64,000 nt of DNA, from positions 2,542,001 through 2,606,000 of the forward strand of contig NC_079882.1 in assembly GCF_029227915.1 (NCBI RefSeq), written 5' to 3'. The first letter of the stretch is position 1, and every line of letters begins with the position of its first letter. Under the pieces are notes generated by a model, which was given only the letters and a program-made list of their open reading frames with translations, was not told the origin of the DNA and did not search any database. The translations under genes were made by a program, and so were the position numbers. The stretch comes from Hydractinia symbiolongicarpus (taxonomy: Eukaryota; Cnidaria; Hydrozoa; Anthoathecata; Hydractiniidae). Positions 41,201 through 44,200 of the stretch are shown piece after piece.

Positions 41201-44200
41201 CTACCATCACTTCTATATGACGTTCAGAGCCTTCAACTTCATTCGTTTCCGGTTCATCAACAAATTTTAAACCAGCTAAAATTATAAATACAGTGTTGGC
41301 ATTACAGTTGGCAAAACAATAAAGTATTATTTATGACAAGTGAAACATTACTAACCATAAAGGTATATATTCTATAAAGTCTTCTAAAGTCTCATAGAGT
41401 GTACTTTTACCGTCTATTTAAGGTAATAGCATTTTACGTGTACCATTCAAAGCAGCTATTTCTTATCAATAAAAATTGCTGTTTTAATTTCAGGCCAATA
41501 TCAGATTTACACTGTTCTGTCAATAATTTTAAGCTTGATCTCAAACTTATGATATGACTGTAATAAATTTCATATAGTAATCATTCTATATACTATAGTC
41601 TCTATAAGTAATATACAGACTTATAGTCTTTGATGAAACACATTGTCATGCCATAAGGCATGACAGGGAGTGTTAGAGAATCTGATATTTATTATTTTCG
41701 ACAGTTGTTACAATAACTTATGCAATCCATGCTAGTATGCAAAACTGAAGTTAACTCGAGATTACCTTTTTTCCACAAATATGTTAAAAGATTTTAATCG
41801 TTAGACTCCAAAGAATTAGCATTTCAGCAAAACTGAAATACTGACATGCTGTCTATTAGCCATAAATCACAATCATTTAACTTTGAGATAACAAGATGGA
41901 GGCCTACCCAAGAGAAAATTAAATTTACATTTAGTAATGCCTAGGTTCACCAACATCAAGGGATTTTTAGAAAGGTATTTAATAATGTTAACACTGAATT
42001 TATTTAAATTTAATTTAGAGTTTGGGAAATTAAAAATTTGAGTTTAGAAATAACACAGTCTATATTAGATTGGAAGAAGGTCATTAATAACATGAAAAAT
42101 GGACGTTAAGCTGCTGAGGACGATAATGATTTAACTCTATATTATTTTACAAGTTGTTAACAAATAGGGGCCAGTAATTTTTTTATTTTTGTATATGAAT
42201 TAAACTGTTTGGCAGTGTTTTATGATTTCTTCACTTCTTTAATAAACTTAAAATAACAAAAACAATTTTTGGGACCTGTGATCAACCACATAACAAACAC
42301 CACACAATAAACGTGGCTTTTTAACCATGCAAAATACAGATGTTGATCATCAGAGTTATTGTGCTGCGTATTCTTGAAATTACAATATTGTAAGGGCCCA
42401 AGAAACAAAATAATACACACTTGGAGTTGTTATAATAATTTCTATCCGTCTTCCAATGCTGCTCAGCGGAGCCACATACTGTTCTTTGCCATTTAACAGG
42501 AGTTTTTTGTTCGTTTTATCATCTTTGACAATCCAAATTGTATCAATGAAGGTATTTACACCACTAACTCGTCCAGGAAAAAGTGCTCTTGGTGGAAATG
42601 GTCTTTCACGTTTATATGAATCTAAATAGTACAACTGAAGCCAAGAAAAGTATTAACTGACATCTGCATTTGTATATATAATAACTTTTGACTATGTAAG
42701 ACTTACCTGAACACTACGGCCAGACTTATTTTTGAACTTTAAGTAACTGTCATAACCACTCCTCCTGACACGTGACTTCCCTTTATTTTTGTTTGCAATT
42801 ACGGGCACTTAATAGAACATAAATACTTGAGGCACACTTTGAAAAGAATATACTACATACTTATACTAAAGGAAAGTTAAGTATGTTTAAGATACTGTAT
42901 ATGTATAACTAAACTTACTATCAAATGGTTCTTCTGTAGTGTAATCGCCAAAGCCTGTGGATTTGGTATTAACAACATCACTACTTCTGTAAATAATGTG
43001 CTGGTGAGGAAACTGTCTTTTTAATGTGTTTTTTACTGGTTCAATAAATATTGTTGCAGATTCGGTTTGTATAATGCCTTCCTATAAAAATCATTATTTT
43101 TTAAAAGTAAAGAATGTGATACTTTCAAATCTCTAGCAACAATATGAAAATCAATGTATGCTTAGTAAATTTTAAGTAATCCTTTTAAAATCCAAAATTT
43201 TTCTCTCTTAGTTACTAAAGTTGTTTTTGTTATAACACTCTTGTCATGATTTATAGCTACAATACTATCATTGTTTACCAAAAATATCCAGCTTCAACAA
43301 TTCTTCATAAAACTCAAAACATCATAAATAATTATTTGTGTCGAATGTGTTATGCGTTTGTAAAATTATATATACAAAAAAGATAACATACTATTAAAAA
43401 GAAATGTTAAGAACAACAAAAATGGCGGGTAATATAGAAATGACAACTTTCATAATACTAAACTGCACCAGCTCCAACTTCCTATTACACTTTCGTTTTT
43501 TCTTTACAATTTTCAGACATGTCCAGTAAATCAAAAAGTTATCTGATAAGGTGTGTGGAAACATTTTCATAAAGGATATCTTTCTTTTAACAGTGCTGGT
43601 TGCAACAGAGGATTCTACCCAAAAATCTTTCAAAAAAAGCCTATTATAGAAAAAATATGAATAAAGAAAAATTTTGTATCAATATGGAAGCAGATGGTAA
43701 TCATGAGGTAGTAAAAAGTTGGAGCTCATAAAAATAACCTTTTTCTCTTATTTAAATGAAATTTTAAAGTTTTTTTTATACATCTTAAGCTTCATATCTT
43801 AAAGAAATAGTAAAGAAAATTTACATACTCAAAGCACTGGGTAAATAATGTTTGAACAGCCAAAAAAAGGTCACTACCACTTCAAAAGGGTACTGGCGAA
43901 AGAAGTCATTAGGGATGAAAGTCTGACCATAGCTTATTAGATTAATCACTAAAATTACAAATCAACAATCTCGTAGGCCTTTAATAATAAATATCATTAT
44001 GAAAAACTCATACCAGTAGGGTTAAATAACATTAGGTTTGTTAACAAATACCTTTCACAGGCCACATGATAAAAGAAAATCATATTTACCAAACCATCAC
44101 AAACATTAAGGATAACATCAGCAGTCTGGTTACTAAGAGTATTGGCATGTCCTGAATATATGCATTCTTCCTCCTGTACAATTTTTCCCTCATAAGAATT

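Follow-up and report, generated by a model that had tools for sequence, protein, structure and literature searches.

Does a gene of Hydractinia symbiolongicarpus carry the beta domain of VHL, known as an intracellular oxygen-sensing reader, inside a secreted ADAMTS protease, and if so, what might the domain do there? The question is raised by a 64,000-nt stretch of the forward strand of NC_079882.1 (assembly GCF_029227915.1, positions 2,542,001-2,606,000), hereafter the window, in which a preliminary description had assigned two exons to such a domain. Coordinates are those of the window unless a contig is named; the window lies on contig C8, while C1, C6, C9, C10, C11, C13 and C15 are contigs of the same genome (481 Mb and 76 contigs were searched), and the ADAMTS gene of the window is referred to as the focal gene. 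Gene models were made by hand, with the signal peptide and prodomain judged by eye.

Results

Structure of the focal gene

The focal gene was assembled on the minus strand (53171..29118) as 32 exons that code for 1,655 residues in an uninterrupted frame (Table 1); all exon borders are GT-AG (E1 begins at the ATG), and the sole stop codon is terminal. The protein would run from a signal-peptide-like start through a prodomain (E2-E5), RVRR, the VHL-type domain and the reprolysin domain (E8-E13) to CR2, TSP1, MAM, CR3, spacer, TSP1 array, a second MAM and a PLAC-like end. Signal peptide, prodomain and furin-type site are thus all present at the sequence level as predicted features, and the entire protein contains no RX[KR]R other than RVRR (218-221). 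In the whole model the reprolysin domain scored 5.3e-20 against Reprolysin_5 (Pfam) and retains an intact zinc motif; TSP1_ADAMTS (6 stretches), ADAMTS_CR_2, ADAMTS_CR_3 and ADAMTS_spacer1 all scored above their Pfam cut-offs. A C-terminal PLAC domain is a feature of some ADAMTS members, and the focal C-terminal end matched it with E 0.014 (16.5 bits vs a cut-off of 26.4). We take E4-E5 to be a reprolysin-type propeptide, for which no Pfam match above cut-off was obtained. A MAM that follows TSP1 and precedes the ADAMTS cysteine-rich domain gives a domain order that seems unusual and recurs in the C15 gene described below.

Table 1. Features of the focal ADAMTS gene and other features noted in and beside the window
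Feature	Position	Strand	Basis or remark
E1: start codon and signal-peptide-like stretch MKLPVLVCIQFLCSFAYG	53106..53171	-	by eye
E2-E3: N-terminal prodomain exons	51567..52561	-	similar exons in upstream tandem copy
E4-E5: presumed reprolysin-type prodomain (ECIYSG.., VCDGLEGIIQTES..FIEPV)	42919..44293	-	similar exons in tandem copy and C15
E6: RVRR (218-221) and first VHL beta strands (SGYDSYLKFKNKSGRSVQ)	42707..42807	-	phase 1 in, 0 out
E7: remaining VHL beta domain (LYYLDSYKRERPF..TFIDTIWIVKDD..LLLNGKEQYV..IITTP)	42421..42634	-	phase 0 in, 1 out
E8-E13: reprolysin (M12B) catalytic domain, HETGHLLGLDHD and VMAP Met-turn	38547..41275	-	Pfam, PDB matches
E14-E17: disintegrin-like/ADAMTS_CR_2 region and first TSP1 repeat	36339..37664	-	Pfam, PDB matches
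E18-E21: linker and MAM domain, between TSP1 and cysteine-rich domain	34498..35777	-	Pfam
E22-E25: cysteine-rich (ADAMTS_CR_3), spacer, TSP1 array start	33303..34419	-	Pfam
E26-E32: TSP1 array, second MAM, PLAC-like end, stop codon	29118..32528	-	Pfam; PLAC sub-threshold
YbeY endoribonuclease gene	12546-13058		Pfam 1.2e-26
Lipase-type gene	15124-18229		Abhydro_lipase 4.1e-27
Long tetranucleotide repeats, GAAA and TATC type	32600-33160, 47200-47770		by eye; 32600-33160 within the focal intron between TSP1 exons E25 and E26
Reverse-transcriptase-like retroelement pieces in the E3-E4 intron	46800-50300		by eye; one piece without Pfam match
Extra ADAMTS tail modules (TSP1 array and MAM)	58500-63600; C8 2606001-2612300		in tandem

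A VHL-type domain between the furin-type site and the protease

E6 and E7 code for residues 206-310, and the VHL-type domain occupies 222-310, directly behind RVRR and ahead of the reprolysin domain, so that the residue numbering given previously is exact and the proposed placement is supported by the 32-exon model. The three junctions on which this depends (42919/42807, 42707/42634 and 42421/41275) are all GT-AG and keep the frame. The domain is free of cysteines, and residue 232 within it is a possible N-glycosylation site.

The VHL beta fold is a seven-stranded beta sandwich. Affinity of the focal domain to VHL beta was borne out at the sequence level by Pfam-A VHL (PF01847), which matched a 106-residue piece with E 6.5e-8 (32.9 bits vs a cut-off of 21), 875 residues with 2.1e-6 (28.1 bits) and the whole model with 4.5e-6 (27.0 bits). 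In a PDB search with a 90-residue domain query, VHL accounted for all 24 distinct sequences at E<=10 (best E 0.0028, residues 5-89). A longer query of 478 residues that included the protease found ADAMTS13 (6qig) and ADAMTS-5 (2rjq) as the best solved matches; the part matched by ADAMTS chains started no earlier than about residue 105, past the VHL-type domain at 1-89, and VHL chains were absent from the 58 sequences at E<=0.01. When human VHL beta served as query, the spliced focal domain reached 23.5 bits and the exon 7 frame alone 18.7, compared with at most 11.2 bits among 1,740 scored shuffles (2,000 made) and 8.9 bits among 2,113 six-frame pieces of the window, own exon excepted; the Smith-Waterman score lay 14.7 SD above shuffles. 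In 222-310 and the region directly behind it there was no Pfam match besides VHL; the reprolysin domain follows where VHL has the alpha domain that binds elongin C, and no such alpha domain was seen in the focal protein. A single-sequence structure model of the domain was unusable (mean pLDDT 39.5). From the Pfam, PDB and z-score results, the earlier claim that the two exons encode about 85 residues aligning end to end with VHL beta is upheld, and we consider it highly probable, judging from sequence, that the VHL-type architecture is real and part of the protein.

A paralog with the same plan on C15

An ADAMTS gene on C15 follows the same plan: a furin-type site (RIRTRR), a VHL-like domain and then a reprolysin domain. 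Its exons E4'-E8' run from 8431317 to 8428792 on the minus strand with GT-AG borders, and farther downstream, in separate exons, HEIGH and GLAHD are followed by TSP1, MAM, the CR3/spacer border and a PLAC-like end. In both genes the furin-type site shares an exon with the domain start, this exon has phase 1 in and 0 out, and an intron splits the domain at the matching place. The E7-E8 intron is in phase 1 in the focal gene vs phase 2 on C15; since E5' and E8' are in phases 1 and 2, joint skipping of both VHL exons would break the frame there.

The two VHL-type domains are identical at 25/86 positions (BLASTP E 3e-8). Against Pfam VHL, the C15 domain scored 17.2, 15.7 and 14.0 bits, below the cut-off of 21. 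A profile-profile comparison of the focal and C15 pair with three VHL-type sequences gave a probability of 96.3% (E 1.7e-9, 65 columns). Moreover, the C15 domain reached 37.4 bits with a profile built without it, vs 11.2 for the best shuffle (5,000 made, 4,731 reported); that profile holds the focal domain, so the test demonstrates kinship with the group rather than with human VHL alone. Identity between the two genes amounts to 13/32, 19/35 and 22/48 in three catalytic stretches, 7/27 and 10/39 in two other catalytic exons, and 23/87 in prodomain exons. The C15 copy was detected only by scanning ahead of ADAMTS loci; whole-genome searches with the focal domain or PF01847 did not list it. At the level of sequence, we regard the gene model, the domain, its position and the second paralog as established.

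Distribution among ADAMTS loci and VHL-type genes of the genome

A genome search with PF17771 (ADAMTS cysteine-rich family) found eight places, the focal gene among them. VHL exons were sought in the 20 kb ahead of six of the other loci and in 40 kb for the seventh, a tandem neighbour on C8. Both exons were found at 2/8 loci (focal and C15), and the tandem neighbour had just the first of them; the remaining five (two on C1, two on C10, one on C6) gave no significant coding-strand VHL match, a result that is less certain for C6 and the second C10 locus because the catalytic-domain start was unrecognised there. On the opposite strand of this second C10 locus, a piece with E 0.032, below the HMMER inclusion threshold, was left uncounted.

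In the tandem neighbour, located at about 2.6289 Mb and below, prodomain exons are present together with an exon resembling E6, DKVKSRVKRIVYDSYLKFR, whose match is weak (E 0.035) but correctly placed. No match to E7-E10 was found in this neighbour; the gap contains DNA of another kind, which weakly matches a hAT transposase (E 0.013, under cut-off). We read this locus as a probable damaged copy, whose E6-like exon suggests that the first VHL exon was present before that duplication. The tail modules of Table 1 follow one another in the interval that separates the focal gene from this neighbour; for the main TSP1 exon, identity amounts to 99% in one module and 75% in another.

A whole-genome search with PF01847, in which eight candidates were scored, placed two above the cut-off, on C9 (L001) and C11 (L002, first domain); this count is a lower bound, since the window's own domain, the C15 domain and a second C11 domain were all missed. 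Genome searches with the focal domain returned only its own two exons and a chance-level place on C13 (E 2.03), and those with the C15 domain only its own two exons and a chance-level place on C1 (E 3.83). No ADAMTS parts were noticed in the stretches around the C9 and C11 genes, by reading rather than profile search. The C9 protein (L001 / L006 7974-8400), with its clear beta domain, is a possible VHL gene. An exon taken there by eye for an alpha domain gave neither a Pfam VHL match nor a BLASTP alignment to human VHL alpha; since these alpha-domain tests were negative, orthology to VHL is not claimed. The C11 gene (L002 / L008 8360-9580) seemingly has a pair of VHL-type domains, encoded by consecutive exons. 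Pfam gave no match for the second, which reached a score solely with a purpose-built profile that has this domain among its members.

The hydroxyproline pocket is remodelled

According to PMC9528729, the hydroxyproline site of human VHL comprises Trp88, Tyr98, His110, Ser111, His115 and Trp117, of which Ser111 and His115 bond the hydroxyl. The residues at 88/98/110/111/115/117 are Y F N T T W in the focal domain and F Y K T T W on C15; those of C9 (W F E T H W) and of the first C11 domain (W A D T H W) keep Trp88 and His115, and those of the second C11 domain are M K A T T W, with Thr in place of His115 as in the ADAMTS copies. Neither ADAMTS domain carries the set Trp88/Tyr98/Ser111/His115/Trp117 (Y F T T W in the focal domain, F Y T T W on C15). 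The pocket description given earlier (Trp117 kept, Ser111 to Thr, His115 and Trp88 changed) was recovered in full, the last two changes being to Thr and Tyr, and Tyr98 to Phe has to be added. Despite only 25/86 identity, the two copies share an aromatic residue at 88 and 98, Thr111, Thr115 and Trp117. With Tyr112 added, pocket columns were positive at 6/7 vs 45/87 overall (p 0.066) and identical at 3/7 vs 24/87 (p 0.29), values at which an excess above background is suggestive only.

Of the hydroxyl-holding pair, both copies replace Ser111 conservatively by Thr and His115 by Thr. Thr111 and Phe98 had been considered as a sign of lost function; this was dropped, since the C9 protein carries both while keeping Trp88 and His115, and two of the worries about the pocket shrink. 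The loss of His115 argues, as far as sequence can tell, against simple equivalence to the VHL hydroxyproline reader. Since Thr is able to hydrogen-bond, a hydroxylated or polar proline-like ligand is possible, and the domain may still work like a hydroxyproline reader.

Discussion

The focal protein resembles known ADAMTS proteins in its signal-peptide-like start, predicted prodomain, furin-type site and M12B domain with HExxHxxGxxHD, as well as in CR2, TSP1, CR3, spacer, TSP1 array and PLAC-like end. It differs from them in that a VHL-type beta domain separates the furin-type site from the catalytic domain, in the MAM between TSP1 and the cysteine-rich domain, and in a second MAM near the end. 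The domain itself resembles the VHL beta domain (PF01847) end to end over about 85 residues, including the FxNxS start, Trp117 and the LLxN strand; unlike VHL, the ADAMTS copies stand in a predicted secreted context, have no alpha domain, and carry Thr for His115 and Tyr or Phe for Trp88. No report of an ADAMTS with a VHL domain was found in the literature searched (most subscription journals lay outside its scope), consistent with the earlier remark that no described case was known; nor did that literature hold a report of a cnidarian VHL domain, or, by title or start of abstract, one on ADAMTS among papers on the VHL beta domain. A further parallel is EMK97_00595 of Litorilituus sediminis, for which PMC9002001 gives a predicted VHL-beta domain in a predicted secreted protein (Pfam 1.3e-2). 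It shares with the focal gene the predicted secretion of a VHL-beta domain, and differs in being bacterial, in lacking a protease and in being known solely from computational prediction, its Pfam score being weak; even so, secretion of the fold would not be wholly unprecedented. Prokaryote scans with the focal domain and a VHL alignment, and one viral scan, found no relative, with patterns so narrow that the negative says little about bacteria.

How could such a domain serve a protease? We propose that, before gene duplication, an ADAMTS gene of this lineage acquired the VHL-type beta domain at a point behind the furin site and ahead of the catalytic domain. The protein would enter the secretory pathway, and furin-like enzymes would probably cut behind RVRR, leaving the VHL-type domain as the free N-terminus of the mature protease; the order of the predicted sites supports the earlier suggestion that it is the N-terminal domain of the mature extracellular enzyme. 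The remodelled pocket (aromatics at 88 and 98, Thr111, Thr115, Trp117) would then grip a matrix-protein strand, extended and probably with proline in it, and bring this strand to the active site, so that the domain would act as a ligand-binding exosite. Given that the architecture is real, an exosite is the likeliest role, with about an even chance of being correct; secretion, furin cut and ligand binding are all predicted steps, and the account as a whole, from gain before duplication to N-terminal exosite, is a tentative one, placed just short of even. In ADAMTS enzymes, most of the exosites known are situated behind the catalytic domain, and hence one in front of it would be a new layout.

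Among the alternatives, a regulatory role, in which the domain would pack on the catalytic domain as a second element of latency or stability once furin removes the prodomain, agrees with the short acidic linker that alone separates the focal domain from the first catalytic strand, and with the retention of the domain between furin site and protease in both genes; packing alone, however, would need no patterned pocket, and we regard this role as unlikely, if still of some weight. It is rather improbable that the furin-type site goes unused and the domain, as part of the prodomain, is removed or only helps export: cleavage is predicted solely from RVRR and RIRTRR, yet RVRR is unique among the 1,655 residues, and in both genes the site stands ahead of the domain.

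The chance seems slight that the domain is an inherited relic, drifting without a ligand and kept merely as a spacer. Its identity between the two genes is below that of the three catalytic stretches, and most of it was lost in the tandem copy; however, an open frame and the pocket pattern are kept in two genes, and domain identity resembles that of the prodomain exons and of the two other catalytic exons. That E6-E7 lie outside the enzyme altogether, being always skipped or belonging to another gene, is hardly credible: although the focal gene could lose both and still connect E5 to E8 in phase 1, the same arrangement exists on C15, where skipping would break the frame, and leaving out E6 would deprive the focal model of its sole RX[KR]R site.

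What the proposed exosite would bind is a separate matter. According to two papers cited in PMC6464237, human VHL reportedly binds hydroxylated collagen IV, and collagen is for this reason a sensible candidate ligand to consider first. Hydroxyproline specificity would be a weaker proposal than those concerning the domain, its placement and its exosite role, and the loss of His115 speaks against it. It is doubtful, with a small probability, that the domain reads prolyl-hydroxylated matrix proteins such as collagens outside the cell and makes ADAMTS cleavage depend on prior prolyl hydroxylation.

A VHL beta fold that has lasted in two secreted proteases would show that this module was recruited outside the cell, and such proteases make it possible to test, in compact form, which targets the fold recognises extracellularly. 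If the domain does not read hydroxyproline, it would provide an example of pocket retuning, with His115 changed to Thr. If it does, collagen hydroxylation would be tied to matrix proteolysis, linking oxygen or collagen maturation to matrix turnover.
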